A stretch of DNA of 64,000 bases from assembly GCA_947579605.1 (NCBI GenBank), contig OX388327.1, forward strand, positions 2,653,122 through 2,717,121, in the 5' to 3' direction. Under the pieces are notes generated by a model, which was given only the letters and a program-made list of their open reading frames with translations, did not search any database and was not told where the DNA came from. Position numbers and translations under genes: made by a program. The stretch's first letter is position 1. Every line of letters begins with the position of its first letter. This document shows positions 13,401 to 64,000 of this stretch, one piece after another. This DNA comes from Athripsodes cinereus. Its lineage: Eukaryota; Arthropoda; Insecta; Trichoptera; Leptoceridae.

Positions 13401-16400
13401 TAATACAAGAAATACAACATATCGACATTAAAAATTGCAAGCTCATATCGCTAGATGTAAAAAATCTCTTCACCAACATACCAGTGCAAGAAAGTTTACA
13501 ATGTATAAAAAACACATTACAAGAGAAACAAATAGATCCAATAATAGCAGGAGAGATATATGATATAATAGAATTATGCACAACATCAAATTATTTCCAA
13601 CACAACCATACAATATACAGCCAACGCGAAGGTTTACCTATGGGACTACCTTTATCAAACTTACTTTCAGACATATTCATGGACAAAATCGAACAAAAAC
13701 TACTCAACACCCCACTAGCCAAACAACAAATTGTATATTATAAAAGATATGTAGACGACATACTCATAGCCTTCAGAGGATCCCAAAGACAAACTAAACA
13801 ACTTTTAAAACTAGCAAACGAACTACACAAGAACATTGAATTCACTATGGAAACCGAAGAAAACAATAGTATAAATTTCCTCGACATTACTATCACTAGA
13901 ATCAATGATAAACACGAATTTAAAATATATAGGAAACCCACATACTGCGACACAACAATACATGCAAAATCACAACACCCATGGATACACAAACTAGCAG
14001 CTTATAACAGTATGATACACAGACTTGTTAACATACCCATGACAAATGATAACTACCTTAATGAACTTACCACAATAACAACAATAGCAGAACACAATGG
14101 TTACAATAAACAAATTATACACCAACTACACAAAAAACACACACATAAGAAAATAATTGGACAGATATATCCTATCATACAAGAAACAGACCCACACAAA
14201 TATAGAACGATAGATTACCACGGAAAAATATCAGAAAAAATAGCAAAAGAACTAAATAAAAATAACATTACAACAGCATTTAAAACACGTAACAACATAG
14301 GAACATTAATTAAAAACACCAAGGACAAAACTAACACACAGGAAAAAAGTGGAATATATAGACTAAATTGTGACCAATGTAATAGTATTTATATAGGACA
14401 AACAGGACGCAGCATTGAAGATAGATTCAAAGAACACAAATCGAATTGGAAAAATAACCACCTAGACAAATCACAATTTGCTAAACACCTAATTCAACAC
14501 AAACATAAAATAGCAGACACCAACACACCCACACTATTACACACAGAAAGAAAAGGAATCAGATTAAACATTTTAGAACAAATAGAAATTAATAAAAATA
14601 TTAACAACCACCACTCAACACTTATTAATGAACAGACAAACATTTATAACTCACCTATATTGGACATTTTCAAATATAAACAAATAGACAACTCACAAAA
14701 ATAACTCATAGTCACCCTACAAACAACTTACAAAAATAACTCATAGTCACCCTTCAAACAAACACCAACAAAACAATACTGAGAACTGGGTTTTTTCCCC
14801 CCAACCATCAACACACAAGACTCACCTACAAGACAAAGCACTTTAGTATGATTATGGCATTGCAGCCGAAACATATGTAACATTAATTAAAATATTTTTT
14901 GTAAAACAAATAAATTGTAAGTAATTTATAAAATTAAAAAAAAAAAAAAAAAAAAATCCAAGGAGGTTTGTATCTTTCTCCCTTTCAGAATGTTCCGGAA
15001 ATGAGTTAGGCAAGTGTCATTAAATAGCAAATATTTCAAAGCAAAAATCGTGTATTGTACCTAAGTATAATTTTGTAGTCTGTCTTATATTTATACATGT
15101 AAAAGGTTTGCGCCGTATACAACACTGTAAATAAATAAATAAAATAAACAGAAAATGTTTGTTTGGTTTTTGTTGGACTAATGACAACATTATTAGTAAT
15201 AAGACTTTGGCATATTTTTTTAATAATTACCTATTATACATTTCAGAAAACAGTACAATTCGTATGTGTGGGATGGCCGACTATGATTGCTTCACTGAAG
15301 TCAAAGGTTTGTAACGAAATTTAAATTATCTTATATTTAAATAAATTGTTATAATAGAAGTAATTACTCTCAAGCTGGGACAGATTTATTCCTAGGCTAC
15401 CAAATTTTGATCTCGATTAGATTAAGAAGTTTTGTTAAACATTATTTTCATAGATTTCGATTAGAAGATGGACTCCAGTCAGTGATATGTTATACCTAGA
15501 TTTGCAATATGAATCTCAAACATGTACCATCAATAAAAAAATTTGCGGACCTTGGTGCCGCAATTTTTAGTTTGAAAAAAAGCGACACACATATAAATAA
15601 ATTGTTTGTAGATAACAAGAGATAGACAATATGAGAATAGGGATTACTACAGACGTCAAAGGCCGGTAGAAAGAGATGAATATATACATAAGAAAAGAGA
15701 TGAATATATATTACTCAGGTATTGTACGTCGACGGGTGGGTACACATTTTTAGAGAATATTTGTATGACATTGCGAATCTAGTTGTAACATATCACTGAC
15801 TCCAGTACACTGAGAAAAATACTAACGAAATTTCACAACGAATCATTGGTACGTACTATCAGATTAGGGCCAGAGATAGTACAAACGATTCATTAGGACG
15901 AATCTAAAATATTAAATTTTCGCAAATAAATTGTTTGTAAATTTACCAATGACTTAGATTCGTACTAATGAATCGTTTGTACTATCTCTGGTCCTAATCT
16001 GATAGTACGTACCAATGATTCGTTGTGAAATTTCGTTAGTATTTTTCTCAGTGTAGATTGAAATAAATCAGTCAAAAGAATCTACTTCCTACCTATGTTC
16101 TCCATGGGAATGTTAAATGATGTTAATAGGTTTGTTCATACTGGGACTACAAAACACTGACCAATTTTATAATCTCTTTATTCTCTTTATAAATTACCTA
16201 TCAAAGGAATAGAAGGTTGTAATCTCGAAGATCTTATTCTATATAATAAGACAATGTCAGTTATCGACTATTGGAGTGAAAAGAATAAGGCTAGACAAAG
16301 AGTCTGGGTCTCTTCGTTTTACCTCTATTGTTTTAGGGCATTTCTCTATAATTAAATGTATTTTGATCAATGTAGAGCAATGAATGATAAATTTAATTAT

Positions 16401-31800: not shown

Positions 31801-34800
31801 CAGGGTTGCCAGATCGTGTTGCCAAAATTACCCTACTCCGGTGAAAAAAATACCGTACAATTACCGTACACATCGGAAATACAACAGTACCTTTTCAAAA
31901 TGTAACGGGTATTTGGGTATTTCTACTCCCCCGTCGTCGCCAAATTTTCAAAATGGTATAGGAATTTGGAATATTATAAAAACTCCTCGGTTTTCTTAAT
32001 GAATATTTTCTCACACAGTAGGTACTTTTTTACAATGTAACAGGTATTTGTACCTTTGAACCGATGATTGTTTAAGTAAATACCGGATACTTGTTTGCTG
32101 TATGTAATTTATTACCGTACGGGGAATGAAATTACCGTACGACTGGCAACGCTGTTTTGGCCGCAACGTCATCTATATTCAAACGATAACGACACAAAAA
32201 TGTAACGCTTAAATGTGTTTTGACTTGGGACCCTGATGGTTTAAATAGATTAGTTACCATACCTTAGCGATTCGCTCATCAGCATCAACGATATTGTCCT
32301 TCTTGGTGGCTATGAACTCCCTGAACTCCTCAAGAATCCCCTCGGCTCTAAACAAAGGTCTACATAGCTGGTTGGTGTAGATGGACATGACTCTCTCCAC
32401 CTGCTCCTTGTACTCTTCAGATGTAAGAGATAAAGACCCCCTAAAAACAAAACATACATGTAAATATAAATAAATAAATTTTTAGTGGCCAAATTAAAAT
32501 TAAATATACAATAAATACACAACATGATGATTAAAAATAATTTGGACCAAAGGGCGGACTTGTTGCTGAGCAACATCTTACAGTCAACCCTTAGCTCTAA
32601 CACAAGAAAACAAATAAAGAGAATTATATACCTACAAGTAATCTATGGTATTAAAATTGAAAAATAAACCAAAAGTTAAAGTTTAATATAAGAATAAAAT
32701 ATAATATAGGTACCTACCCATATAAATATAAATTTACATAAATAAAATAAGATAAAACAAGATAAAAAATATGAAAAATATTAGAAAATATAGAAAAATA
32801 AATAGCTAAGGATTCTAAGGATTTATATTCAAAAAGCCAAATTAATTTACTAACGAATAAAAATGATAATTTTGAGTTTTCATCATCACGTCACTTCCCT
32901 TTTGGGGTAAGCAGAAAACACTGAGCGTCACTTACTCCCATCCTTTCACTTTCGTCACTACCATACAATTCCTCATGTATGTATACTCTCTTATTCAATC
33001 TACTCAACAATCATCCATCCTGTATCTGGTTTATGCGCTTTTGCCATTTAATCTTGGACGGCCACGTTTCTGAGTAGCACCATTCCTCTCGGCCACATAT
33101 ATTTTCTTTCTTTCGTCATTCATCCCTTCCACGTGACCAAACCACGGCTATTTTCATTTCATTCATTCTTGTTATTTCCCCAGCATTCCTTTCAGTCGCA
33201 ACAAATAACACTATTACACAAACACAAAACTCTCTCTCATGAATTTCACCATTTCTGAGGATCATGATTTTCGTACGAACTACATATCACTCTGTGCCAT
33301 CCTCTTCTGTCACACAATCCAAATAAAAATGCAAACATGAGTATGTAGAAGAAAAAAAATATAATAATTACCCAATGACAGCCAATTGATTGAGTTCAAA
33401 TTCTTTAGCCGTGTCCCACAGGAGTGATCCATCCAGCGGATCAGCTCCTGCAGCCTCCAGAGCCTCTGGAAGGACCTTGCGAGCCTCCTCCTCACTGCCC
33501 ATGCTCATAGCACACCACTCCATGTAAATACCACCACCTGAAAACAAATCAAATAAAACCAACTGAGAACATTCTTCAAAATAAAAAACAAAATATATTG
33601 TAGAAGGGGGGTGCTCTATGGAGCACCCAGCGAAGAATTGGTCTCTGACTCTTATCCGAAGTTTTCGAGGCAGTCTGCTCCCATTTGTGTGATGTAATGG
33701 TATGATAAAGACCAATGGTTTTTGGTGGAAATTCACAGCAATAAGAAATTAAAATGAAACAAAATATATGGTGATTATATTGGTGACTTTATGAATTTGT
33801 GAGCTAGCTTTCCAAAGCATCGGCTCTTATTGTGTTACATTTGTTTGATGATGAATGCAGAAACTTTCAGAAGCCCATTCAAAAATGAATAAAGTCGCTA
33901 GTGGGATTGCAATAAATTTTGTTTCATTTCAACTTCTTATTGTAATAGTATTAATGAATAGAATGTTAATAATGGTTGAAAAAGGATGAGAGTGGAATAA
34001 ATGCTGTGGAGATGCGTTCACTGAGAAGAATGGTTGGTAAAACGTTGCGAGATAGAGTGAAGAATGAGGATATCAGGAGAATGAGCGGATGTGAGAGGAG
34101 TGTTGTGGACAGAATGCGTGTAAACAAGTTGAGATGGTTTGGACATGTTGAGCGAATGCAAGATGAAAGGATGACGAAGAGGATGTATTTATCTGAAAGA
34201 AGGGGTGTGAGGAAGCACGGACGTCCAAGAACCACGTGGCTTGATCACGTGGACCAAATTCTTAAGGACGGACGCGTGCTGAGTAAGAGAAATCGGCGTG
34301 CATGTATGAGAAACTGAATGAATGTAGAGGAAGCGAAAGAAGTATGTAAGAATAGATCTATATGGCGTTCCGTTCTCTCTGCCTACCCCTCCTGGGACAT
34401 GGCGTGAGGGTTTAGTATAGTATAGTATAGTATAGTATGTTAATCCATACATTAATAATGCATGTAAATGTTTTTTTTTTAAAAAAAAGACGTATCTAGG
34501 TTTATGTTATAAACACAAATACAATCTTATACACCTTTCACAGTAAGCTTGTGTCGTGAAAGGGGAGTTTGCCGGCACCTGGTATCGAACCACGGACCCC
34601 TTGTTCACGAGGCCGAGACTCTACCGACAAACTCATTATTCGTTAATGTAACATTAACAATACATGTAATGGTGTGAATGAATAGAATGAATCAATAAAA
34701 TTATTATAACGATTCTTACAAAAACAGTCCTCAAAAGCTTTTTGGAAGAGCATATAGATGTTGGTCCTGCCCTCGGAGGTAGTCACAGAATCTCCCTCCA

Positions 34801-37461: not shown

Positions 37462-40400
37462 ATGTCCAGCGATTCAGTGAAAAATGTAAGTTTAATATAT
37501 AAAATTTATTACAAAAAATTGTTGGAACACGGAACACTAGTTGTATCTAAGTACTAGGTGGTAAATGTTTATAATTTATTTTAATCACGACATTGTTTGA
37601 TGTACGCTAAGGAATTTAATCTACTTGCTTACTGTTTTTATTATTCATGCATGTGCTTAGTAAACAAATAAGGATGTGGAGAAATTGTGAAACCGCTATA
37701 TCATCGATAAACTGTATTAAATCGGGGCGTCTACAGTTTGTGTTCATTTTATAACATGACTCACGTTATGTTGCGGTTTTCTTATTATCTATATTTATAT
37801 GATAAACAATTTATAATATAGACATTTTTCTCCTTTGTTTAGCACATTATCAGTATCATTGTTCATTTTTAAATAATGAGCTCCATTTTATTTTTGTTAC
37901 TTTTTTACATCCACTTTTTTAGGAAATAAAATATGATTCTAGTTCTTTTTTTATGTATTTAAGAGGTTTTTTTTTTTTAATATACACGCTTAACCATTTT
38001 TTAGCACTTTTATGGATCAGAATGAATGATCTTAGTGATATTTTTTTCAATTTATCTAATAGTCCATTGCTTTGAAATTTAAAATCAGTCTTATCATTTT
38101 GATACAATGAAGTAACCACTAAGAACTACATGAAAATTGAAGCTATATAACACAAACATCCCTTTTAAGATAGGCAAAAAGATAGTACATCATAAATGCT
38201 CTATTCCTAAAATATATATTCTTGTCTTATCATGGTATCTGCCTTATGTGGGGTAACCAACGGATTTACTGCACATAATAGATGTTTTACTCGAGGATAT
38301 GGGGCAAGATTTTGATTGTATGGTCTTACTATATTGTGGCCAGCAAAAATACAAATATATCTGCGTTCATCATCATCTCCATCGGTCCCTCAATTCTGAA
38401 GATTGTGACCATCATTCCTCGTTCTGTAATACACCTATCTCCACCTTGAGCAGTACTCAGTCGCATGCAAGGCCCCGTGTAGTGAACTCTGTGTGACCTC
38501 CTTAATTTGGTCGCTCCATCTTGCTGGTACTCAGCCCCTTCAACGCCTCCCTTTTACAGCCCCAGTTTTAATTACCCTGCATTCATATATTTGTGAACAA
38601 TGTGACTGCTTGTTATACCCCCATATTATTATTTCTATTATGTCACATACAGTTTCTCTGGATTTTCTTCCGGTAATCCAAGTAACACGGGCACATGTGC
38701 CAAGCATCACTCGTTTCTGAGGCAATTCGTTAAGTTTCGTCTATTTGTAAAAAATTACGTACTATTCTACATGTGTTCAGAATTGCAGCCACTGCCATAC
38801 ACGAAATTTCCTCCTTTCCTTATTGAATTCGAAGGAACTAAAGAAAGGGAAAGAGATAAATTAAACTTCTAAGGGTAGAGCATGATGAGAGGAAGCAAAT
38901 AAGCTATCTATCTATTCCCTCACGCTGTATCCCAAGTGAGGCAGGCAGAGAGAATGGAACGCCAATTAGATCTGTCCTTACATACTTCTTTCCCCTCCTC
39001 CACAGTCATACAAATTTCTCATGCATCCACGTTGATTTCTCTTACTCCAAACATGGCCGTCCTTGAGATTTGATGTACATGATCAAGCCATGTAGTTCTC
39101 GGACGCCCGCACTTCCTCACACCCCTCCTTTCAGACAGGTATATCCTCTTTGTCATTTTTTCCTCTTCCATTCGTTCTACATGACCAAACCATCTCAATT
39201 TATTTACGCGCATTCTATCCTCAACACTCCTCTTGCATCCACTCATTCTTCTAATATCCTCATTTCTCACTCTATCTCGCAACGTTTTACCAACCATCCT
39301 CCTCAGCGATCTCATCTCCACAGCATTTATTCCACTTACATCCCTCTTCAACCATGTCCACGTTTTGCTTGCATACATAAGTGTCGGTACCAGAATGGTA
39401 TTGTGCACTAGCAATTTTGCCATGTTCGACACATTGTCATTGCTGACAATGGGTCGAAGTGCACCGTTAATCCTAGCACCGCCCACTTTTCTTCTTTCAA
39501 TATCCTCGTCTCACCTTCCATCCCTCGCAAACAAATTGATAAAAAAAATGATAAACAAAACCAAGGGACAGAGTGCTTGAAAAGCCACCTCCAACGAAAG
39601 GAGTGGACGTGCACAAAACAAGTATGAGTTTAGAATTGCAGCAATTAATTATTTATTTATTAATATTATCATCTTAAAAATATCACCCTGCACGGAGACC
39701 ACAACAGGTTTTGGCCAAGGCGATCTCAGTAGGAAAGAAAGTAAATCACAAAAGAGACATCATCAATGCAAGAGAGAGTAAAAAGTATGTTTTGTTGTAA
39801 TGGATGTGTGTGTGTGTGTGTGTCAGTGTGCCATGTGTTCAGGAAGTGAATGCACTCTTTGACAGCAATTAGATACACTTGTACACACTCACAGCATGTT
39901 GTATACAGATATTGTGTACTACATATTATTGTGTACTTATGTATGGATCTCTATAGATCTAGACATTGCCTGTATTGTTATTTGCTATGTATAGCTGCTA
40001 CTGAATTGTATTTATTTATTTATTTTTATATAAAAAGATGTATCTAGGTTTTATTTTTTTTTTTATTTTTTATTTTTACAATGTATACAGGATCAGACAG
40101 TCGATTATAGTACATGATAACAATTTACAAAATCAAAAGGTGGACCAGTGAAGATCCTAAATTTACCAGAAGGGTTTCAAAAAATCATCAAAGTTAAGAA
40201 CAAATACAAATATACAATCACCACAACATGCTTTTAAATTAATAAATAAAATGAAATTCAGGTGAACGAGTTAATTAAGACTAAGTGAACAAAAACAAGA
40301 CCAAAAAATCAACGCAAGTTTTGTTTGTTATAAACCCAAATACAACCTTTTACACCTTTCACAATAAGCTACTTCAAGCTAGTGTCGTGAAAGGGGAGTT

Positions 40401-43400
40401 TGCCGGTATCTGGTAGGGTTATTCCGTGTCAAATCATCACACTGATTCAGACTTGATGTCTCAGATTTTCATGATTTTTTTTATGCAGCAATATATCATA
40501 GACTTATGAAAAAATACCAAATTTCAGTTATGTAGCACAATTATTTTTGAAATTATTAATTTTTAAAAATCACACTTTTTATGAAAAAATCTCATGTCTT
40601 GGCACCTTTGGATGCCTATAGACTAGCAACCAGTGATGATATAAACCTGGGAGAGGTCTCGTTTTAAAGCTGTTGAATGGGGCTTTAATCTGATGTGCCA
40701 CAGGATAGGTCACGGTTTAAAAAAAAAAAAATTAAAATTAAATTTTTCAAAAAGTGACAATTTTAAAAATTACAAAAAATTGTCAAAAATAGTTTGTAAT
40801 GTATTAATACATATACCAAAATTCTATTATGGGATCTCAATGGGATCAGGAGATACAGGGCTTCAGAAATACATGCATCGTAAAATACACGCAACTTCAC
40901 GATGCATGCATTTCTGAAGCCCTGTATCTCCTGATCCCATTGAGATCCCATGATAAAATTTAACTATATGTATTAAGACATTACAAACTATTTTTGAGAA
41001 TTTTTTGAAATTTTAAAATTGCCATTTTTTGAAAAATTTAATTTTAAATTTTTTTTTTTTTTTAAACCGTGACCTATCTCCCAAAATTGTGTTGAATTGA
41101 CACGGAATGACCCGGTATCGAACCACGGACCCCTTGTTCACGTGGCTGAGACTCTACCTCCAGGCTACCGACGAACTCCTTGTCTGATATCAGAATGATA
41201 TAATAAATTTAGATTAGATGTAAATAAGTCAAGATGGTTTGGGCACGTGGAAAGAATGAATGAGGACAGAATGACTTAGAAGATATATTTGGCTGAGAGG
41301 AATGGTGCTCGGAGATGTGGACGTCCGAGGATCAATCGGTAAGATCATTTAAATCAAATCCTACAGGACGGTCATGTGTTGAGCACATTGAACTGGAGAG
41401 CATGCATGAGGAATTGTATGGCGGTGACGGAAGCGAAAGATGTATGCAAGGGTAGAAGGAAGTGGCGCTCGATCATTTCTGCCTACCCCGCGAGGGAAAT
41501 GGCTTGATGGTATGTATGTTTAAAATACTAAATGAATAAATAAAATAAAATCTCTAAAAAGGGACTTATCCTTTCTCTCGCTTACACGAAATGTCGCTCA
41601 TTATCGCTCACTTTTTCACATTTATTTTAGCTCATTATGCGAATTACTCTTTATGAGAGGTACTCGTTATGAAAGGTTCCACTGTATTGAGTTTTACTAA
41701 ATAAATAATTACAAAATATTATTATTAAATTGTTTTTTTATTTGTTTCAGTTTGCCAACCTGGAGACGCCCGGATACGTGGGCTTCGCAAACCTCCCCAA
41801 TCAAGTGCACCGCAAATCTGTCAAGAAGGGTTTTGAGTTCACATTGATGGTGGTCGGTGAAAGTGGCTTAGGGAAATCCACATTGGTGAACTCTCTATTT
41901 CTCACGGATCTGTATCCGGAACGGGTGATTCCTGATGCAGTCGGTAAGAGACTCTTCTTATATGCAACGTCCAGATCAAACCAAAGAAGGGTTATTCCGT
42001 GTCAAATCAACACACTGATTCAAACTTGATGTCTCAGATTTTCATGATTTTTATATGCAGCAATATATCATAGACTTATGAAGAAATACCAAATTTCAGT
42101 TTTGTAGCACAATTATTTTTGAAATTATGAATTTTAAAAATTTCAATTTTTATGAAAAAAAATCATGTCTTGGCACCTTTGGCACCTTAATCAAAATCAT
42201 AATGATATGTTTGTGTTGCAGAGAAGACAAACCAAACAGTGAAGCTGGATGCTTCCACAGTGGAGATTGAAGAGAGAGGAGTGAAGTTAAGACTGACTGT
42301 GGTGGACACTCCGGGATATGGAGACGCTATCAACAATACAGACTGCTTTCAGGTAAAGAGAAGACAATTCAACTCAGAAAACACAACAATAAGTTCATTA
42401 CCCTATTCCGGATTTAGAATTATAAGAATAGATTTTTTTTTATTTAGAAAACAAATTTCTATCTGTCTATCTATACCCTCACACCATGCCCCAAGCGGGG
42501 TAGGCAGAGAGGATGGGATGCCATAAAAACCTATTCTTACATACTCAGTTGTGTATCATATACAACATACCTACCTAGTTAATACCTATTCAAATAGGTT
42601 GACTATCGGTGAGTGTGATCAACTGGAATGATTAATCTAGAGTGGTTCAAAATATAATTAACTTAACAGGTTATTGTCTAAGATTTCTCTGTATGATGGT
42701 TTGTTCATAAAATTGTTTTCAGTCGATAATTCAGTACATTGATGACCAGTTTGAGCGCTTCCTTCGTGACGAGAGCGGATTGAACCGTCGCAACATCGTG
42801 GACAACAGGATACATTGCTGTTTCTACTTTATATCTCCATTCGGACACGGCCTAAAACCACTGGACATTGAGTTCATGAAGCAGCTTCATAACAAAGTCA
42901 ATATTGTGCCCGTCATTGCCAAGGCGGACGTTCTGACCAAGAAGGAAATACAGCGATTGAAAAATAAGGTTAAATTTTTTTTACTTTATCATCTATCTTT
43001 ACATAATCTCTCATATTTGATTTTTGTGTATGTATGTAATTTTTGAACTGATGTTTGTTGATCTATATTGTGAAAGGCTTTGCCGTTTATGAGATGAAAT
43101 AAATAAATAAATATTATTGGAGTAGCTAATGAACCTACTGTATGAAATTACTAGAGATGCAATGAATAGTGTATTTGCTGAATACCAAATATTATGCAAG
43201 ATCATGTGCCGAATAACCAAATATTCGACAAAACAATGGTGAGAGCGTGCGGTACTCCCGACCACGCATCTTCGTGTAGGTATATCATAGACATACGTAC
43301 TAGACTTGCAGCGCGGTACATTTTTTCTAAATTTTGTGTCCCAACATTAATAATAACAATAATAATATTATGTTGTTTCACTCCATATGAAATTAAATTA

Positions 43401-46400
43401 ATTAATTAGATATTTGAGGATTAATAATTATGCATCTGCAGCTGACAATGAAATAACAACAATCTACAAGCTATTAGTTCCTTCCAGTTTTACATTTAAA
43501 CTATTTGGCAGAATACCGAATAATAGACCAAATATTCGGTATTCGGTCGAATAGTAAAAATGTTGCCGAATAAGCAGAATACCGAATAGTTGTTGCATCT
43601 CTAGTAATTACCATACAGGTTGTGCTTTCCTTGTTACAAAAAAGTCCAAAATGGGTGGCATACCTCATCACTCTTTTAACCGTTTGACAAATATATTTCT
43701 GTACGTGGGAGCGAAACTACACCATGCAGAAGTGACTTGTAAACAAAGTATTGTAGTTCTTGTTATGCTATTTTAAATGACATTCATCTGTCTTGAAAAT
43801 GAGTTATATTTTGAAATATCCATAAATAAAAAAAATGACAAATTTTTCTTAAAGCAAAACATTCCCATTTTAATGCAATATTGTGAAAATTTTCAAAAAA
43901 ATGTGATATATTATGATGAATAGCAATCATTCACAATATTTTTTAAGAGTAACATGTGAGAAGCAAATATAATTTTGTTGAAAACTTTTGAATGGCCATA
44001 CTGAAAAATGGCGTCCATTGAGATAGTGTAGTTTCGCTCCGGCGTACAGGTTTATTATATATGTACAATACTTAGTAGTACGTAAAAGGTTTAGACCGTG
44101 AATTTTTGAAAAGAAATAAATTAACAAATAGTGACCCAAGTTTTGGACACACAATTTCATTTTCAATCTGAAAATATCTCGGGTTAGTTTGTAATTTGAA
44201 AACGACATCACATGTCGAAACTTAAATCTCTATTGTTAACTAGTAAAAATCTAAATAATTTTTATTCGTCATGGAATTTTTAACTGTTTTATAATTTTCT
44301 GATGCTTATGTTTATTGCAGGTTATGAGTGAGATTGCAGATAACGGCATCAAGATATACCCCCTTCCTGATTGCGATAGCGATGAGGATGAAGAGTATAA
44401 AGAACAGGTAACCCTGCCGTACACGAAAATACAATCTAATAAATCTACAAATTATAATGAATCGTGATCACACAAAAACTTAACAACTCAAGATGCGGTT
44501 GCGTGAAAACAGGTTCTTCATTTGTTTCTTTCATTTCGATGTTATTTCAATACAATGAAAAATGGTCTGACTGTTAATGCTGATATTTATTTACGTTTCA
44601 TACAACTTTGAAATGATTGTCAATAAATGTGCTGTAGCGTAAAAACACTAGACTTACTCTAACCAAACCTTCAAATCAGTCGAACGTAAAAATTTAATTA
44701 CTTGTGAGATGGCAAACACATATGAAAAATGCAAATAATTAATTTTGTGCTTAAAAAAAACCACAATATTACACCGGATTATTATTCTCCAGATAAAATA
44801 CTACATATCTACATAAAAATAGTTCTATATAATCCAAGTTTTGATGCGTACACTTATACTTATAAATTCCTTTTGAAATATTGTGTGAATAATGTTGTGT
44901 TTTAACTGTAAAATATTTATATTTTATGTAAATTAAAAACACTATGTTTTCGACTTTTATTTTAATGAGTTAAACGTTTTCAAAACTTACTGTTTCATCT
45001 CCAGATCATAAGATGTTTGTTCTGAAGATGAAACAGTAAGTTTTGAAAACGTTTAACTCGTTAAAATAAAAGTGGAAAATACAGAGTTTTAATTTTTTAA
45101 TTTATGTAAATTATAAATATTTTACAGTTATAAGTTCCCTCTAACTATTGATTTTGTGATGTCCAGTAATGGTATTGAGCTTAAGATATGACTTAGAAAA
45201 GACAATGTCACCTTATTTGGTAGTTCCCCAGACGAGACCTGAACCATCTGAACACCCCATCCCTTTCTCGAGGTGTGCTTTGTCCAATCAAGCGATAATA
45301 TCCTTTTTCTTCTTACTTCAGGTGAGACAGCTCAAAGAAGCTGTACCGTTTGCAGTGTGCGGCGCCACAGCAATGTTAGAAGTCAAAGGGAAGAAGGTGC
45401 GAGGACGTCTGTATCCATGGGGTGTAGTTGAGGTGGAGAATCCGGAACATTGTGACTTTATCAAACTGAGGACAATGCTCATGTACGTATCATTGTCATC
45501 ATCCCATTACGCCACTTCCCTTGGTATCTATAGAATAGATAGATTATTAATTACCATTACCTCACCCAATACACATTTTTCGATTTCTTTTTTTTTTACT
45601 TTTTTAAACTTTCGCGTAATAATTACGCCGAGCAGATCCTCTCCTTTTCCCCTTTCCCCTTCCCTTCCTATTCTTGTTGTATGTGTGCTTTTTATATTTT
45701 ATCTTGTTTTTATTATATATTTCATTTGTAGTTTTTTTTTTTAGCATCTTGTTTTTATATACTTTTATCTATATGTTTTTTCTATTGTTTTATTTTTATT
45801 TATTTATTATTTTATTTTTTCGGGTTGGCTGGAAGAGATCGCATATGCGATAAGCCCGCCTTTTGGTAGTTTATTGGAACAAAAAACATGTACCTACACA
45901 TTATAATTATATTGATGCCAATAAAGCTTTATTTATTTATTTATTTATTATTTATTTACCATTCTGATTCCGAGACTTATGTATGGAAGTGAAATTTGGA
46001 CATGGTTAAAGAGGGGCAAAAGTGAAATAAGTGTTAATATTTCGAGAATAATATCACATACTGTCATTTGAGTTTGAGGAGTCAGCTCAGCAATAAAAAG
46101 TTCAGACAACAATTTTAATGACCCATTAAACAGTTTTTTAAGAGCGTGCCTAAATAGAAATAATTGCACATACGACATTTTAAATATGCAACGACGTTAT
46201 GTTATTTCAATATACTTTGACATTGTGTTTGTATATATTTTGACGTCACATATAAATTATAATCTTACTTTTACCAACTGACATTTCAATATTTTTGTTA
46301 TTTTAATTATTGTTTTTACTTGTTCTTGACATCTTAATATTATCCTTGACATCTCAATATTATTTTTTGTTATTTTAATTATTATTTTGATTATTCTTTT

Positions 46401-47132
46401 TTATTACTTTGAATTTGCTTGTTGTTATATTTATTTTGTGCTGTTAACATGTAAAAGGCGAAAGCCGTGAATGTGCTTAAAATAAATAAATAATATGTAT
46501 ATATATTTTTAGTTAGAATTATTACATTTTGACAATAAAACACAGATCGATATTCAAAATTTGCTTGTAGAAATGAAGGGGTTAAAGGGCAAATAAGATA
46601 AGAATTAATTTCATTTCTTATATTTTAGCACTCACATGCAGGACCTCCAGGAAGTAACGCAGGAGGTGCACTACGAGAACTATCGCTCCGAGAGATTGGC
46701 CAAAGGGACACCGATGCCCAAAAGAAACGCGTAAGTAACCATTTCATTTAGGAAACAGCTGACCATCTCATAAATTCAATCCAATCACCCTTCATTGCTC
46801 CTCCTTGAGGCACAAGGCAGAAACTAACCTTCTCCATACAGAATCATCCATTTGTTGGAACCTTGCAGCCTTATTATTCAATTAATTTTTACATTCATAC
46901 CATTAGAATATTTCTTACGATTCGGGTAATTAACGAACTGCATATAACAGACTTGCAAGCGTCCTCTTATGTAGCAAGACGTTTAATGTTTATTCTTGTT
47001 TATAGTTCCATCGACAGTGTGGATAGTGACAAGGTCCTGCAGGAAAAAGAAGCCGAATTACGTCGCATGCAAGAAATGTTGGACCAGATGCAGAGGCAGA
47101 TCAGTCTTCAGAAACAGCAGGGGCAAGCGTGA
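37462..47132 (+). CDS. Sep1: Septin, Sep1/SEPT2 type, 8 exons
   Basis: Exons: 37462-37485, 41751-41943, 42222-42352, 42723-42968, 44321-44407, 45322-45482, 46629-46730, 47006-47132, all in phase, giving 356 aa, close to Drosophila Sep1. The GTP-binding fold shows the P loop GESGLGKST (44-52), DTPG (101-104) and AKAD (182-185), followed by the septin unique element and a C-terminal coiled coil ([19 protein letters not shown]). [11 protein letters not shown] just before the P loop is the polybasic lipid-binding region. Septins polymerise into GTP-dependent filaments at the cortex and cleavage furrow. The long first intron and a divergent start next to SART3 suggest regulation near 37.3 kb. The TGA is followed by a long in-frame extension (47133-48194). 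Confidence 0.95.
37486..38225. other. First part of Sep1 intron 1, nothing recognised
   Basis: AT-rich DNA without repeats matching elsewhere in the window or any open frame of note. Intronic enhancers could be here, but nothing in the sequence shows one. Confidence 0.4.
38226..38290 (-). mobile_element. SINE family S tail
   Basis: ATCATGGTATCTGCCTTATG-TGGGGTAACCAACGG matches the reverse 3' end of SINE S. Confidence 0.45.
38360..38725. repeat. Probable dispersed repeat, unclassified
   Basis: A locally GC-richer block in Sep1 intron 1 without a convincing frame or splice sites. Its composition differs sharply from the flanks, which suggests an inserted element, but no second copy is in the window. 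Confidence 0.25.
38905..39470 (-). mobile_element. RTE-like LINE family A, longest reading frame
   Basis: The minus strand at 39019-39486 encodes [49 protein letters not shown] and [13 protein letters not shown], then loses frame near the end. The 3' end with (GATA)n is at 38905. It lies in Sep1 intron 1, antisense to the gene. Confidence 0.8.
39475..40324. other. Sep1 intron 1, low-complexity and LINE 3' debris
   Basis: A (TG)n run at about 39805-39822. A minus-strand LINE 3' end lies at about 40050-40185, with a GGTCCACCTTTTGAT block like that at 23108. No gene seen. Confidence 0.4.
40325..41190 (-). mobile_element. SINE V split by a foldback element
   Basis: The SINE body (40325-40411, AAACCCAAATACAACC ... 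GGGGAGTTTGCCGG) and its tRNA-like head (41118-41190, TCGAACCACGGACCCC ... GAGACTCTACC) are continuous in the copy at 34490-34640. Here they are separated by 698 bp. Confidence 0.75.
40416..41113. mobile_element. 698-bp foldback DNA element with GGTA target duplication
   Basis: Termini GGGTTATTCCGTGTCAA and the complement of GGGTCATTCCGTGTCAA. GGTA flanks both ends (40412-40415, 41114-41117) and is single in the uninterrupted SINE at 34490. The right half is a 373-bp palindrome (40705-41077). No coding capacity. Superfamily unclear; a 4-bp duplication and GGG termini exclude Tc1/mariner (TA), piggyBac (TTAA) and hAT (8 bp). Confidence 0.8.
41215..41520 (+). mobile_element. RTE-like LINE family B, degenerate 3' end
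   Basis: [14 protein letters not shown] and RGRPRI-type sequence with stops, then CCCCGCGAGGGAAATGG and GATGGTATGTATG. Confidence 0.7.
41989..42182 (+). mobile_element. Left half of the same foldback family in Sep1 intron 2
   Basis: GGGTTATTCCGTGTCAAATC through GCAGCAATATATCATAGAC to TCTTGGCACCTTTGG matches 40416-40612 closely. The palindromic part and right terminus are absent. It makes up most of the 278-bp intron 2. Confidence 0.8.
42462..42660. mobile_element. Family A LINE tail (minus) joined to a 115-bp repeat
   Basis: 42462-42544: CTATCTATACCCTCAC ... GGGGTAGGCAGAGAGGATGG, reverse LINE A tail. 42545-42660 is the inverted partner of 24045-24160. Confidence 0.6.
43050..43115 (+). mobile_element. 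LINE tail with hairpin
   Basis: ATTGTGAAAGGCTTTGCCG then AAATAAATAAATAAAT. Confidence 0.5.
43152..43603. mobile_element. hAT MITE, 452 bp, Sep1 intron 4
   Basis: Ends TAGAGATGCAATGAATAG and the complement of TAGAGATGCAACAACTA. Flanks GAAATTAC and GTAATTAC agree at 7 of 8, the hAT duplication length. A related copy in the opposite orientation lies at 52728-53156. Confidence 0.8.
43701..44046. mobile_element. TA-type MITE, second copy of the 18279-18610 family
   Basis: Ends GTACGTGGGAGCGAAACTAC and the complement of GTACGCCGGAGCGAAACTAC. The internal GAAATATCCATAAATAAAA and ATGAATAGCAATCATTCACA are shared with the first copy. Confidence 0.8.
44600..44860 (+). repeat. Dispersed repeat X, second copy
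   Basis: GAAATGATTGTCAATAAATG, AATGCAAATAATTAATTTTG and TACATATCTACATAAAAA match 35820-36120 over most of their length. Confidence 0.6.
44946..45080. repeat. Long hairpin, ~53-bp arms
   Basis: TTTATTTTAATGAGTTAAACG ... GTTTCATCT pairs with AGATGAAAC ... CGTTTAACTCGTTAAAATAAA across a 26-base loop. Sep1 intron 5. Confidence 0.75.
45183..45300 (-). mobile_element. tRNA-derived SINE T2, second copy
   Basis: GACAATGTCACCTTATTTGG and CCCCAGACGAGACCTGAAC match 16740-16866. It ends 20 bp before Sep1 exon 6. Confidence 0.5.
45600..45960 (+). mobile_element. LINE 3' UTR of lepidopteran type
   Basis: GGGTTGGCTGGAAGAGATCG, CATATGCGATAAGCCCGCC and GCCAATAAAGCTTTATTTAT with a TTTA-repeat end. This block resembles the 3' ends of LINEs that I recall as common in moths and butterflies. 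Confidence 0.6.
45958..46045 (+). mobile_element. RTE-like LINE family A internal scrap
   Basis: Encodes a mutated [17 protein letters not shown] segment, as in 38905-39470. Confidence 0.5.
46200..46500 (+). mobile_element. LINE 3' UTR with GAAA-loop hairpin tail
   Basis: T-rich DNA ending AACATGTAAAAGGCGAAAGCCG then AAATAAATAAAT. Confidence 0.5.
46750..46860 (-). repeat. Dispersed ~120-bp repeat, third copy
   Basis: GCTCCTCCTTGAGGCACAAGG and CAGAAACTAACCTTC are the reverse complement of the copies at 2325 and 6980. Confidence 0.4.
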
Positions 47133-48194
47133 TTCTCAAACAACTCCAGTTCATCTCAGACATGTCAAGACACTTCTACGACTCCAAAACAAACTGCGGA
47201 AAACTGTTGCACTCTTACTCAACTCCATGAAAATAACTTCTTCAATGAAAATGATAAAAATCTATGTAATAACATTGTCGATTTGAATTGTGATGTGTCA
47301 AATTCTGACGATGCATGTAAAATTGTACAAACTGACGATGTAAAGAATCTTGACATGTGTAAAACTAGTTTTGATGAGAATGGTTTTGCTGATGATGTGT
47401 GTAAAACTAGTTCTGAAGCAAATGGTAATGCTAATGAAATGTGTGAATCTAGTTTTGATGCAAACGGTTTTGCTGATGACGTTTGTATAACTAGTTTTGA
47501 TGTAAAGAATCTTACTGCAGGTGCATGTAAAACTGGACATGACACTATTAATGTTTCTGAAACTAATTTTGATGCAAGTGACTTAACTGATGATGAATGT
47601 AAAACTAGTTTTGATGAAAATAATCTTACTACTGACAAATCTAAAACTGGTTCTGTCGCAAATGGTCTCTCTGATGAAATATGTAAAACTGGTTTTGATG
47701 CAAAGGGTCTTACTACTGATATGTGCAAAACTGCGTTTGATGAAACTATCATCACAATTGACGCGTGTAAAACCTCGTCTGATGGTAAACGTAACAATGA
47801 ATTCTCTGATATTTCTACAATCACTTCCCACGCAGACAAAACTCCCATTCAATTTTGCAATTTTAAATACAATCTGGACGCCATCGCTGAAAACGTGGAA
47901 AAGAGAATGCTCAACAATTTTAATGTCAATAATGAACAAAAAATTGTGACGAAAAATTGTAAAAAAGTCACATTTAATACAAATATGAACACAAATATTG
48001 ATTGTAATGTAAACTTTATTCGTAAATGTGAAGACATAAATGGGAACGCTTTTACGTCAGATTTGTCAGATACGAATAAGATCGACATTTACGATGGTGA
48101 CAGTTACAAATCTCCCGAAGATAGTAACATTTCTAGTTTTATTTGTAACGTGTTCAGTTTTACTATGTGCCGCGCCACCAAGTACGAGAAATAG
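47133..48194 (+). CDS. In-frame extension after the Sep1 TGA, candidate readthrough product
   Basis: Directly after TGA (47130-47132) the septin frame stays open for 353 codons to TAG at 48192-48194. Order: a Ser/Asn/Thr-rich lead (47133-47330), about eleven 14-residue repeats of the type CKTSFDENGFADDV (47358-47800, period 42 bp with one shortened pair), then ~130 non-repetitive codons containing CKKVTFN and ending CRATKYEK. The extension is acidic and Cys-bearing and matches no family I know. The first in-frame ATG is at 47355, 222 bp past the stop. I saw no splice that would remove the TGA and keep this frame. Alternatives are a separate downstream cistron, a 3' UTR kept open by a 42-bp repeat, or a sequence error. 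Confidence 0.5.
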   Translation, partial: FSNNSSSSQTCQDTSTTPKQTAENCCTLTQLHENNFFNENDKNLCNNIVDLNCDVSNSDDACKIVQTDDVKNLDMCKTSFDENGFADDVCKTSSEANGNANEMCESSFDANGFADDVCITSFDVKNLTAGACKTGHDTINVSETNFDASDLTDDECKTSFDENNLTTDKSKTGSVANGLSDEICKTGFDAKGLTTDMCKTAFDETIITIDACKTSSDGKRNNEFSDISTITSHADKTPIQFCNFKYNLDAIAENVEKRMLNNFNVNNEQKIVTKNCKKVTFNTNMNTNIDCNVNFIRKCEDINGNAFTSDLSDTNKIDIYDGDSYKSPEDSNISSFICNVFSFTMCRATKYEK

Positions 48195-48412
48195 TCTTCG
48201 TCGAATATCAGTATTATAATATAATTATCATATTTGGGTTTCGTTTGACGTGAATGGATTATTTTTTTCGTGAGTGTAACTTGGGTTTCCCGTGTCGTGA
48301 ATTTGAGTCTCTGTTATCGTGAGTTTTGAGTATAATCTAATTTTTTTATATATATCGTCGTTGCATATTTGAAAAGGGTCATATGAATTCATAAATGTTT
48401 TGACATTTCTTG

Positions 48413-48418
48413 AATAAA
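48413..48418 (+). terminator. Poly(A) signal downstream of Sep1
   Basis: AATAAA in TTGAATAAACTGC, 219 bp after the TAG that ends the extension. No AATAAA was noticed between the TGA and this point, so the extension would be part of the Sep1 mRNA. Confidence 0.5.
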
Positions 48419-48784
48419 CTGCTTATAATGTTATCATAACCATTTTATAAAGTGATTCTTAGTATCAAATATTAAAATTCAATACTAGAGTAAAGAATAA
48501 TATCACATGCCAATAAAAAGTCCAAACTACAATTTCAATGCCTTAATGAACAGTTTTAAAAGAGTATGCCCAAATTAAAATGTGAGCACGTGTCTCTTTT
48601 TGAATATGCAACAATGATATTATGGGTATTCCTCATTGTGACTGTATCTTGGGACACGGTTTCATTTTCCGCTGTTGTGAATTTCAACTTTTAAGTGTAT
48701 AAATATTTTATTAGACGATTTGAGTTTTCTTTTTTATGATGTAAAACCTTTTTTGGTGTTTTTACTTAACTGTTTTGCTGTCAA

Positions 48785-48843
48785 TATAATACTACTACTA
48801 CTATACCATCACAGCATATCCCACAAGTGGGGTAGCCAGCATT
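48785..48843 (-). mobile_element. ~53-bp SINE S tail insertion with 16-bp target duplication
   Basis: (TAC)n ACTATACCATCACAGC ... GGGGTAGCCAGCA lies between two copies of TTGCTGTCAATATAAT. Only the SINE 3' end was inserted. Confidence 0.8.
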
Positions 48844-48954
48844 GCTGTCAATATAATCCAGATTCTTATTGAATATATCTTCCATAAATGAGCCCAAGCG
48901 TCTTTTGTCATGGTTTTAAGTGTTGTAAAAATAACCAGAATTATGTAATACGAA

Positions 48955-49050
48955 ACAAGTGTTTCTTTCTACTATAAGTTATTGTTCACGAGAGAGACGT
49001 CTCTCGTGAACAATAACTTATACATAGTAGAAAGAAATGCTTGTTTCAAA
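48955..49050. repeat. Foldback family F, near-perfect palindrome
   Basis: ACAAGTGTTTCTTTCTACTA, AGTTATTGTTCACGAGAG and a central GAGACGTCTC form a ~45-bp stem with almost no loop. Relatives lie at 17095, 25968-26420 and 30575. Confidence 0.75.
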
Positions 49051-49373
49051 TTACCTAATTATTGAATTCTACTACGTGTGCACGGACACAATTAATAATA
49101 GTAAAAATAACCCATATCCAATGTCCCGAAATTGAATTTCAATCATCTTGGAATTGAGTTCCAATTGTGAGCGATTATTGTATTTTTTTTTCAATATGAT
49201 GAAACTTGTTTGAAACAAACCAAAAATACATCCCAGACACCGTCACAGTAAGCAATGTGCTTGTGTTGTGAAGGTGGTGTAAGTCAGCAGCAAGGAGAAT
49301 CGAACCCACATCTCTTGATTAATTGCATTAAATAAAAATAAATAAAAGTTTTACATATTTCAGCGGTGAGTCA

Positions 49374-49737
49374 TCCCTCTTCTGACTAACAGTTGTATCT
49401 GACATTTTTGGCAAAATTGAGCTATGATCACCAATGTGTATTTATATGTGCCCTGCATGTTCTCACTAAAAATCACACCTGTAACTGTTACCGTTATCCT
49501 GGAATAGCTTTCTGATTTGTTAATGTATGAATTACTCTAAATAAAATGTGTTGTCGTATCTACAAATTCCTGAAAATTTCATCACAAAAATGATTCTGAG
49601 ATATATAAGAATAGGTACAAATAAACACTGTATCATATAACTAGGAGAGACGAATTATGCACGGCAAAACACCAAAAACTCTCTCCTGAACAATTTACAT
49701 TTAGGCAGATACAACTGTTAGTCAGAAGAGGGACGAT
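49374..49737. mobile_element. TIR element, ~364 bp
   Basis: CATCCCTCTTCTGACTAACAG at the left pairs with CTGTTAGTCAGAAGAGGGACG at the right, about 27-bp arms. No open frame. Confidence 0.65.
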
Positions 49738-53930: not shown

Positions 53931-54713
53931 TGTACATACTATAAATGTTTTATTTGCTTTATAACAAATTACTTCAGTACAATACATAATCATGTACTAT
54001 AAATGTTTTATTTGCTTTATAACAAATTACTTCAGTACAATGCATAATCATGTACTATAAATGTTTTATTTACTTTATAACAAATTACTTCAGTACAATG
54101 CATAATCATGTACTATAAATGTTTTATTTGCTTTATAACAAATTACTTCAGTACAATACATAATCATGTACTATAAATGTTTTATTTGCTTTATAACAAA
54201 TTATACTATACTATACCCTCACGCCATGTCCCAAGTGGGGTAGGCAGAGAGAACGGAACGCCAAACAGATCTATCTTTACACACTTCCTTCGCTTCCTCC
54301 ACATTCATACAGTTCCTCATACACGCACGTCGGTTCCTCTTACTCAACACGCGGCCGTCCTTGAGAATTTGATCCACGTGATCAAGCCACGTGGTTCTCG
54401 GACGCCCGCGTTTCCTCACACCCTTTCTTTCAGATAAGTATATCCTCTTTGTCATTCTTACCTCGTTCATTCGTTCAACATGCCCAAACCACCGTAGTTT
54501 ATTCACGCGCATTCTGTCCACAACACTCTTCTTGCATCCGCTCATTCTTCTAATATCCTCATTCTTCACTCTATCACGCAGCGTTTTACCAACCATTCTT
54601 CTCAATGATCTAACATAACAACGATATAACAAATTACTTTAGTACAATACATAATCATGTACTGTAAATGTTTTATTTGCTTTATAACAAATTACTTTAG
54701 TACAATACATAAT
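53931..54713. repeat. 58-bp tandem repeat array, interrupted by a LINE
   Basis: Unit TCATGTACTATAAATGTTTT ... CAGTACAATGCATAA, 4.7 near-identical copies at 53931-54198, then about 1.5 copies at 54615-54713 after the LINE. Confidence 0.85.
54199..54614 (-). mobile_element. RTE-like LINE family A inserted in the 58-bp array, 12-bp target duplication
   Basis: The minus strand encodes [30 protein letters not shown] and [16 protein letters not shown] without a stop, ending with (TAGTA)n at 54199. TATAACAAATTA occurs at both edges. 5'-truncated. Confidence 0.85.
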
Positions 54714-55488
54714 CAGCCGTATTCACAAAAAGTATTAATTACTATTCCAACAGACCTGACTAACTCTCAAACAAAGATTAGCATTGTTCCACATTTATGC
54801 CTGACTAATATATTTAAAAAAAATCAGTAGAATATTGACTAGATGCACTCTGCTATCTTAGTGCCAACACTCACGTATGCAAATGAGACGTGGACATGGT
54901 TAAAGAAGGATGAAAGTGGCATAAATGCAGTAGAAATGAGATTGTTGAGAAGGATGTGTGGTAAAAGTCTGAGAGATTGTGTGCGTAACAGTGATATACG
55001 AAAGAAATGTGGAATGAAAGTTGGTGTAATAACATGGATGAATGTGAATAAGTTAAGATGGTTTGGGCACGTGGAAAGAATGAATGAGGACAGAATGACC
55101 AAGAAGATATATTTGGCTGAGAGGAATGGTGCTCGGAGACATGGACGTCCGAGGATCAAATGGCAAGATTATTTACATCAAATCCTACAGGACGGTCACG
55201 TGTTGAGCATATTGAACAGGAGAGCATGCATATGGAATTGTATGACAGTGACGGAAGCGAAAGATGTATGCAAGGATAGAAGGAAGTGGCGCTCGATCCT
55301 TTCTGCCTATCCCGTGAGGGAAGCGGCGTGATGGTATGTATGTATGTATGTATGCACCATAAAAAAATGTTTTGCTATAGCAAGGGTTAATAAATTTGTG
55401 AGTGAAGACTTTTGTTTAGTCAGGGCTAATTTAAAACAACACTCTTGTTAGCTGTGTCTAAATACGCATTTGTGAATACGGCTGTACA
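54714..55488. mobile_element. TIR element (hAT-like) split by a LINE
   Basis: CAGCCGTATTCACAAA at the left and TTTGTGAATACGGCTG at the right. Flanks TACATAAT and TACATATA agree at 6 of 8. Confidence 0.65.
54842..55352 (+). mobile_element. RTE-like LINE family B, best copy
   Basis: A frame at 54843-55331 encodes [54 protein letters not shown] and [17 protein letters not shown], ending in AAGCGGCGTGATGG and (TATG)n. 5'-truncated and nested in the TIR element. Confidence 0.8.
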
Positions 55489-61913: not shown

Positions 61914-62905
61914 TTATTCCACTGGTTGGAATAGTGGTGCTATTGAGGAGGAGGGTTGAACCTCAGCTAGCACTTCTCTTCTGTAATACTTTGCAAAGGT
62001 ATTTGCACTCTTCCAATTGCCTCTTGCAAGTATATCATCCAATCTGTAGTTCTCAAGCCAGTTCAGCGATGCCACTGCTGATCGTATACTTCCTGGTGGT
62101 GATTCAATACCTGCACTCTTTAAAATAGATTTTACCCAGTTGGCTATCATAGTTCTTGAAGCTGGCTTTGATGGATTCCTTGATGTTATAAATAATGGGT
62201 ATTTTGTGCTCTCAGATGTTCTATATTGCTGAGATAATTCTATGACTCTCTTAATCCACACGACAGGGCATATACTGCATTCGTCTGCTGGTTTCAGACG
62301 CCATCCTGACTGCCGGTATGATATGGAATCAGTCTTTGACCCATAGGACGGCCACAACAAGATGCCTTCTTCATCGATAATGAGACTTTCTGTTGTGTTC
62401 CTTAGCAATGTTAAGTCTTGAACCCTGCGGCCTGAGGCTAATAGTAACAGTGTACAGGCTCTTCTGTTAGCATCGTATAGCGAAATGTTCTCTGGCTGGT
62501 TCACCTTTAACCATCCAATTATCTGATTTGGGTTCCAAATAGGTGGTTTAGGTGTTTTTCGCCTGGACAATTGGATCGCTTTGATTATTCTCCTCACTAA
62601 AGGATGATCAGATAGACTTATTGTTGATGGGCTGCATAGAGTGGCTACTACCGACTTGTGAACAAGGATCGTGCTCGGGGAGAGATTCCGTTTAAGATGA
62701 AGATCTGAGAGGAATCTCGCTAAGTCCGAACCAGATGGATGGGTTATACTGATTTTATTAGCGGAAGCCCATACTTTCCATCTTTTCCATGGCCCTCTAT
62801 AAGAGTTTAGAGTGGAAGCTCGCCAACCCTTTTTAAGTAGCTGTTTTTGTTGCTCGTCCCATGATGTCAATGACCCATCCCACCCCCACACCTCCAGACC
62901 TCTAG
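61914..62905 (-). CDS. DIRS-order tyrosine recombinase
   Basis: The C-terminal ~330 codons of a 691-codon minus-strand frame. Order: TSWDEQQKQLLKKGWRAST and YRGPWKRWKVWA (SAM-like core-binding domain), LLLASGRRVQDLTLL (box I Arg), SGWRLKP, ASRTMIANWVKSILKSAG, GSIRSAVASLNW (box II), RGNWKSANTFAKYYRRE (Tyr nucleophile). It integrates the cDNA circle of DIRS-like retrotransposons. The box II His expected three residues before the Arg appears to be Gly. Upstream of about 62905 this frame only shadows the RT/RNase H ORF, so the true start is near there. Confidence 0.85.
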
Positions 62906-64000
62906 ATTCAAGGTTTTCAGGGATGGAGGGGCTTTGCCTGTTGCCATGTTGATCAGTGCTGTCTCTAGGTTGTCTATTTTCTGGGGAGGGTCGAGAGCCC
63001 GATTTTTCAGGTCTGCTCTCCAGAACACTTTGTTCCACACCGGAGCCACTATTAAGAATATCCCCCGTGCTTGATTTAGATGTGCCAGGACTTGGGGGAT
63101 TAGATAGGGTGGAGGAAAAACCCATGCCAGCTCGAAATTCCACTGGCGACTCAGCGCATTGTGAAATAGGGCTTGATCGTCCCTGTGGTCTATGGAGACA
63201 TAAGTCTCTACCACATGAGCTTTTGCTGATGCGAATAAGTCTATTTTGGGTTTTCCCCATTTTCTGAAGATCCGAGATGTTGCATGTGGGAGCAGATGCC
63301 ACTCTACAAGATTCTGATTCCGGGACAGGCTGTCCGCAGTACCGTTGAATCTCCCCGGTAAGTAATATGCTTTTATGTCTATGTAATACCGGTCTGCAAT
63401 CTCCAGTACAGTTTTTGTCAGGGTCAGAAGAGCCCGTGACCTCGTGCCTCCCTCCTTGTTTATATAAGACACAACTGTTTTGTTGTCGCACTGGACCATG
63501 AGACCCGAGTGCGACAGCTCTTTGGCATGTGGTGCTAGCGCAGCCAGCACACCGAGCATTTCTTTTTGATTGCAATGCAGAGCTTGCTCCTCTAAGGTCC
63601 AACTCCCTTTCAGTTCTTTGCTGTTTAGAAGGGCACCCCAGCCTGCGTCTGAGGCATCTGTTGTCAACAGATTTGTGTATGGCAGATGAAAAATTTTGGA
63701 ACTCCTCCTGATGTTTGCCCTCCACCACTCCAAGTCGTCTAAGACCTCTCTTGGGAATGGTAATTTCTGAAATTTTCTCAGATTCCTCAATGTTCCACTG
63801 TGAATTTGTGTTACTCGACAGTGTAATCTGCCTCGAGGTACTGGGAAGCTTGCGAAGTTCAGGAGGCCTAAGAGGATCTGAACCTCGTTTAAGGAACCTC
63901 TTTCCTTCGCTATCAGAGCCCTGATGAAGGATGATGTTTTCTGGACCTTGTCTTCTGGTAACCATTTCTGACCTACTTGAGTGTTCCAAGTTATACCCAA
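62867..64000 (-). CDS. DIRS-order reverse transcriptase/RNase H, C-terminal part, cut by window edge
   Basis: 377 codons, open to the window edge. RNase H shows LLTTDASDAGWGALLNS (first Asp), NQKEMLGVLAALA (Glu), VQCDNKTVVSYINKEGG (Asp) and YLPGRFNGTADSLSR (last Asp), followed by the DIRS-specific WGKPKIDLFAS block. The palm domain lies beyond 64000. It stops within a few codons of the recombinase start, in another frame, the compact overlapping layout of DIRS-like elements. No stops or frameshifts were seen. Confidence 0.88.
   Translation of the reverse strand: MGITWNTQVGQKWLPEDKVQKTSSFIRALIAKERGSLNEVQILLGLLNFASFPVPRGRLHCRVTQIHSGTLRNLRKFQKLPFPREVLDDLEWWRANIRRSSKIFHLPYTNLLTTDASDAGWGALLNSKELKGSWTLEEQALHCNQKEMLGVLAALAPHAKELSHSGLMVQCDNKTVVSYINKEGGTRSRALLTLTKTVLEIADRYYIDIKAYYLPGRFNGTADSLSRNQNLVEWHLLPHATSRIFRKWGKPKIDLFASAKAHVVETYVSIDHRDDQALFHNALSRQWNFELAWVFPPPYLIPQVLAHLNQARGIFLIVAPVWNKVFWRADLKNRALDPPQKIDNLETALINMATGKAPPSLKTLNLEVWRCGGGMGH

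Follow-up and report, generated by a model that had tools for sequence, protein, structure and literature searches.

The septin gene in the window, by which we mean the whole 64,000-nucleotide (64-kb) stretch of DNA analysed here, raises the question of why its stop codon is followed by hundreds of sense codons in the same frame and, if these are translated, by what route. The gene itself, on the + strand, is complete, with eight coding exons that encode 356 residues and end at the TGA at 47130–47132:

37462–37485, + strand: probable coding exon 1 of septin 1 (MSSDSVKN), as read from the sequence
37486, + strand: donor GTAAGT of exon 1
41751–41943, + strand: septin-1 coding exon
42222–42352, + strand: septin-1 coding exon
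42723–42968, + strand: septin-1 coding exon
44321–44407, + strand: septin-1 coding exon
45322–45482, + strand: septin-1 coding exon, phase 2 at its end
46629–46730, + strand: septin-1 coding exon, phase 2 at its end, with donor GTAAGT at 46731
47006–47129, + strand: final ordinary septin-1 coding exon, carrying the C-terminal coiled-coil segment and a C-terminus like those of related septins
47130–47132, + strand: septin-1 stop TGA, preceded by ...QQGQA and with T as the next base

By sequence the gene is closest to septin 1 (Sep1, SEPT2 group, arthropods): its start, MSSDSVKN, is shared with several insect septin-1 proteins, and the best full-length named matches were insect septin-1 (84–89 % identity over 95–99 %). 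A tree of 52 rows clustered it with four Lepidoptera (94/84) on a long terminal branch (0.29), although the branching order is a guess because the node with Lepidoptera was not starred; such a position may suit a caddisfly or an early lepidopteran. Searches for copies covered 716,239,008 bases in 160 contigs of the same genome; the 24 candidates scored yielded 21 matches, none of which pointed to another septin-1-like locus. Seven of these matches were pieces of the window's own gene, at 89–97 % identity (81 % for the last exon), and the other 14 fell in three further septin-like loci (C15:25313970–25318047, C7:13712146–13714900 and C5:17389686–17391281), mostly at 42–70 % identity with one 33-residue piece at 85 %; these loci are presumably other insect septins. 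A septin paralogue or retrocopy was rejected as a source of the sequence beyond the stop, no genome match having the appearance of a retrocopy that carries it.

The TGA falls where septins of this kind end. An RMQE-type motif (RRMQE, KRMQE or RHMQE) was present in 93 of the 120 septin matches listed, the other 27 not being scored, and the tail beyond it, 18 residues here, measured 12–36 residues (median 14) in those 93; as in the septin-1 group, the coiled-coil segment ends shortly past the motif. Because the related tails end near the same point, the TGA at 47130–47132 is, on this comparison of sequences, the genuine, ancestral stop where this septin always ended, and what lies beyond it is therefore former 3′ UTR. 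That the proteins of its relatives finish only a few residues from the TGA (93 of 120 listed matches with the motif) also speaks against other ways of bypassing it, be it selenocysteine, editing of the RNA, or a normally long septin with a recent nonsense change or an assembly error at 47130. None of these had direct support, and a scan of 41000–49500 gave 15 Rfam matches with E up to 1, none of them a SECIS element and none reaching its gathering score, so that selenocysteine was rejected; as a group we regard them as most improbable.

Downstream of the stop lie three features:

47133–48194, + strand: in-frame extension of 353 codons, then TAG; residues N, D, T, S and C are abundant
47355–47804, + strand: array of 14-codon (42-bp) units, consensus MCKTSFDANGLTDD
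48413–48418, + strand: AATAAA, likely polyadenylation signal

The preliminary description had reported that the septin TGA is followed by 353 in-frame sense codons up to a TAG at 48192, and a listing of the reading frames confirmed this, the open frame spanning 47133–48191 and the TAG occupying 48192–48194. Its first in-frame ATG is at 47355, the first 74 codons having none, and it is the only frame open throughout the extension, although antisense frames are open over parts of it for 209 codons (over the repeats) and 157 codons. The same description had held the openness of the non-repetitive flanks to be improbable by chance. With the stop rate of the window (0.061) and segments cut as 74 and 149 codons around the repeats, this was borne out, with P=0.0095 for the 74 codons 5′ of the array and P=8.5e-5 for the 149 codons 3′ of it. 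The AATAAA at 48413 was likewise found where it had been placed, and the further claim that the frame lies inside the mRNA depends on a transcript that, we infer, extends to 48413. Neither AATAAA nor ATTAAA occurs from the TGA to 48413, and the weaker variants present are GATAAA (47253), AATACA (47866 and 47976), CATAAA (48035 and 48390) and AATATA (48218).

Coding signal was measured with the extension split at the array into a 5′ flank of 222 nt, the array of 450 nt and a 3′ flank of 387 nt. TESTCODE values were 1.12, 1.15 and 1.16, respectively, with 1.24 for the septin exons, and the 219 nt past the TAG scored 0.57, with no coding signal. Codons of the form RNY, a measure that is symmetric between strands, made up 43 % of the 5′ flank, 51 % of the array and 44 % of the 3′ flank in the extension frame, and 11–18 % in the two others; the first 25 codons were the weakest among the complete bins (0.32). 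Among control tiles, drawn from the window minus the septin exons and the extension, 0 of 106 matched the 3′ flank in period-3 signal or RNY, and 1 of 192 matched the 5′ flank in each of these measures. The flanks had a lag-42 identity of 0.33, compared to means of 0.28 and 0.29, and so show no clear 42-nt periodicity; the coding signal is therefore not obviously inherited from decayed repeats. GC3, by contrast, was 0.30, 0.16 and 0.38 in the 5′ flank, array and 3′ flank, compared to 0.57 in the septin exons. The earlier proposal that 47133–48191 is coding is thus supported by the TESTCODE values of the flanks and by their period-3 and RNY signal relative to the control tiles, and we consider it very probable that this is coding sequence downstream of the septin stop, most likely a lineage-specific alternative C-terminus that would be translated. 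The 3′ flank also encodes KKVTF (47961–47975), which we take to resemble a protein phosphatase 1 docking motif; short motifs of such a kind often arise by chance.

The array consists of nine full and two partial units, with every spacing a multiple of three. It had been suggested that such 42-bp repeats could keep themselves open; a neutral array simulated with the same divergence as the units stayed open in 8 % of runs. Since an antisense frame is also open for 209 codons, the repeats alone are weak coding evidence. Divergence among the units was about equal at the three codon positions (0.33, 0.40 and 0.36), and their in-frame dN/dS was 0.80; the two remaining forward frames gave 0.77 and 1.16, and the three on the reverse strand 0.76, 1.00 and 0.57. 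There was thus no sign of frame-specific constraint or purifying selection on the repeat peptide, the in-frame value lying inside the 0.57–1.16 of the five others. Equal divergence, dN/dS, neutral openness and GC3 together indicate that the repeat peptide is loosely constrained at most, which may be compatible with a disordered tail.

These properties of the array are also what would be expected if no protein were made, the extension being either a long 3′ UTR kept open by repeats and chance or a once-coding stretch now unused. Units diverging at all codon positions, a neutral array open in a share of runs, antisense frames open over parts of the extension and the want of a homologue in protein searches are all consistent with this explanation. 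The unique flanks speak against it, with their TESTCODE values, rarity among control tiles (1/192 and 0/106), low probabilities of openness, little 42-nt periodicity and contrast with the sequence past the TAG, and we judge it improbable.

Both DNA and protein searches found the extension to be single-copy in the genome. No other copy was found in the 64-kb window either, and a mobile-element origin was rejected on the lack of another copy in window or genome. As part of the joined protein the extension had no protein match at E≤1 (2913 candidates), and searched alone it had none at E≤10 (946 candidates), although a fast-evolving relative would be missed because the protein searches need shared 5-residue words. 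No relative was found among viral contigs or prokaryote genome contigs, as expected for an insect gene, and nothing in Pfam or among solved structures scored above threshold for the extension. Structure prediction without an alignment was uninformative (mean pLDDT 30).

A further alternative is a separate coding unit, translated from the ATG at 47355 on a dicistronic or internally started mRNA, or joined to another gene whose exon is spliced to 47150 or to 47160. That the first in-frame ATG is at 47355, and that the upstream introns are roomy enough for another first exon, would fit such a unit; however, the 74 codons ahead of this ATG also carry coding signal, and there is no AATAAA or ATTAAA between the septin and extension frames. 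We consider it very unlikely.

The leading reading is that readthrough of the UGA makes the extension, which we hold at a little short of an even chance. Its basis is the gene structure, the open frame, the coding signal of the flanks, the ancestral TGA and the single copy. In its favour, the coding signal shares its frame with the stopped septin and reaches up to the TGA. Readthrough demands frame 0, whereas its rivals permit any of the three frames, an argument set out in section 15 of PMC5100048. An in-frame second open reading frame with coding signal directly past a single stop, a feature of readthrough genes, is present here. We also counted in favour the lack of AATAAA or ATTAAA before 48413 and the lone phase-2 AG between the TGA and the repeats, which scores below the real acceptors. 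According to PMC5100048, readthrough candidates favour UGA as their first stop, and most insects tested are inferred to have abundant readthrough; the same paper gives no abundant readthrough for T. castaneum and A. mellifera, which we counted against readthrough here, and reports C after the stop in 49–63 % of readthrough candidates. The context in our gene is TGA-T, the TGA agreeing with a leaky context while a T stands in the following position where C is favoured. RNA folding predicted no structure downstream of the TGA (z +0.85, +1.43 and +1.70); stimulatory structures are described as a minority feature, present in 9 % of Anopheles candidates and not required. Also counted against readthrough were the absence of CAGCAGCA, the GC3 gap to the septin exons, the weak RNY of the first 25 codons, the in-frame acceptor, the lack of a relative and the repeat units' lack of any sign of purifying selection. 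Of the preliminary case for stop readthrough, the coding frame past a genuine stop stands, the exclusion of splicing does not, and TGA-T and the missing RNA structure lend it no help.

That exclusion had been based on acceptors giving the wrong frame, and the argument fails because of one AG that joins the extension in frame without the TGA:

47148–47149, + strand: candidate alternative acceptor AG (exon start 47150), matching the phase of the donor at 46731

Septin splice variants exist in animals. Splicing from the donor at 46731 (or 45483, in the same phase) to 47150 instead of 47006 would drop 144 nt, comprising the coiled-coil segment and the TGA, and the extension would replace the septin C-terminus; the predicted junction would read ...KRNA|SSSQ.... 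No other AG of the required phase (2) lies between the TGA and the array, and chance alone would leave the five unconstrained codons ahead of it open about 7 times in 10. Scored with a matrix rather than with MaxEnt tables (for which Jungreis 2016 set a cut of 4 or more), it reached −0.8, under all seven acceptors that the gene uses (0.8 to 11.7). As 21.6 % of the window's 3078 AGs reach its score, it is not one of the poor ones; against it, 10 of 108 AGs inside coding sequence reach that score as well. We regard it as a weak but usable acceptor. Splicing has no need of frame 0 relative to the septin stop and would hit on it with a chance of 1 in 3, and a second route, from a donor at 47034 to an acceptor at 47160, has a donor score of −4.3 on the same matrix, below all six scored real donors. 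The gap between TGA and AG is 17 nt, too short for composition tests to separate readthrough from splicing. On balance, an alternative 3′ splice site is a serious contender that we nevertheless think unlikely.

Under readthrough, septin 1 would encode two C-termini. The ancestral TGA would terminate the ordinary product, and a small fraction of ribosomes would instead decode the UGA as an amino acid and go on through the former 3′ UTR. The protein that they make would gain 353 residues of low complexity, containing 14-residue cysteine repeats; this tail would leave the coiled coil in place and might equip the septin subunit with a disordered region for interactions. That the extension is translated specifically in this manner we can only infer, and the fuller proposal, of a core cytoskeletal GTPase, a septin of about 710 residues made by readthrough of the ancestral UGA, with its coiled coil kept and a 353-residue tail that arose lineage-specifically from the 3′ UTR, is put forward tentatively.

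Insect readthrough genes, such as kelch, headcase, Synapsin and Sxl in Drosophila (Jungreis 2016, Dunn 2013), likewise have a single TGA and a long in-frame second open reading frame. In Table 1 of PMC4999894, validated Drosophila tails span 154–444 residues and are partly disordered and low-complexity, including tails of 316 (KEL), 430 (HDC), 356 (SXL) and 444 (SYN) residues, so that the septin tail resembles the low-complexity Drosophila tails of 300–450 residues. Unlike these genes, the septin has T rather than C after its stop and no predicted structure. Septins are not named in the relevant portions of Jungreis 2016 and Dunn 2013, nor did the portions of the literature covered on septin readthrough, Lepidoptera readthrough and insect septin splicing or extension yield a readthrough septin in insects. 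The likeness to alternative-3′-splice-site C-termini is an in-frame acceptor 17 nt past the septin stop that would swap the C-terminus; the difference is that this acceptor is weaker than the gene's real ones and is a candidate from sequence. The part of PMC4494051 drawn on here describes de novo C-terminal extensions from former 3′ UTRs in yeasts, in a table that includes the septin SPR3. The septin tail here is similar in that a 3′ UTR is co-opted as a coding tail; however, the yeast extensions lose the stop by mutation or frameshift, whereas the septin here keeps its TGA and has 353 codons beyond it.

Readthrough and splicing predict different proteins, with the coiled coil kept or lost. 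Were splicing correct, the product would be an unusual but ordinary alternative C-terminus from which the coiled coil is removed. Were readthrough correct, repeat expansion in a 3′ UTR would have given rise to a long tail while the stop before it was retained, and this tail would sit on one component of a polymer whose subunits all have fixed interfaces. This would raise the questions of how long-tailed subunits can be accommodated in a filament and of whether readthrough allows new C-termini to be tried at low dose.

Elsewhere in the window, long frames at 12992–14701 (+) and 2–1411 (−) carry reverse transcriptase domains (Pfam RVT_1, E 1.1e-18 and 7.5e-31). Overlapping long frames at 61917–63998 (−) and 62870–63997 (−) gave weak Pfam matches, integrase-like at E 0.0032 and RNase H-like at E 0.00089, both below the curated cut-offs; the two frames are perhaps a tyrosine-recombinase retroelement. 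One dispersed repeat family, at about 80–89 % identity and on both strands, occurs at 11150–11678, 33972–34425, 38904–39451 and 54202–54611. Inverted repeats resembling small hairpin elements were seen at 44900–45133, 48939–49060, 40704–41078 and 15806–16055; two of them flank or sit inside the septin gene region and gave sub-threshold Rfam microRNA matches. A 58-bp tandem array lies at 53937–54203 (4.6 copies, 98 % matches), with a related copy at 54625–54715.
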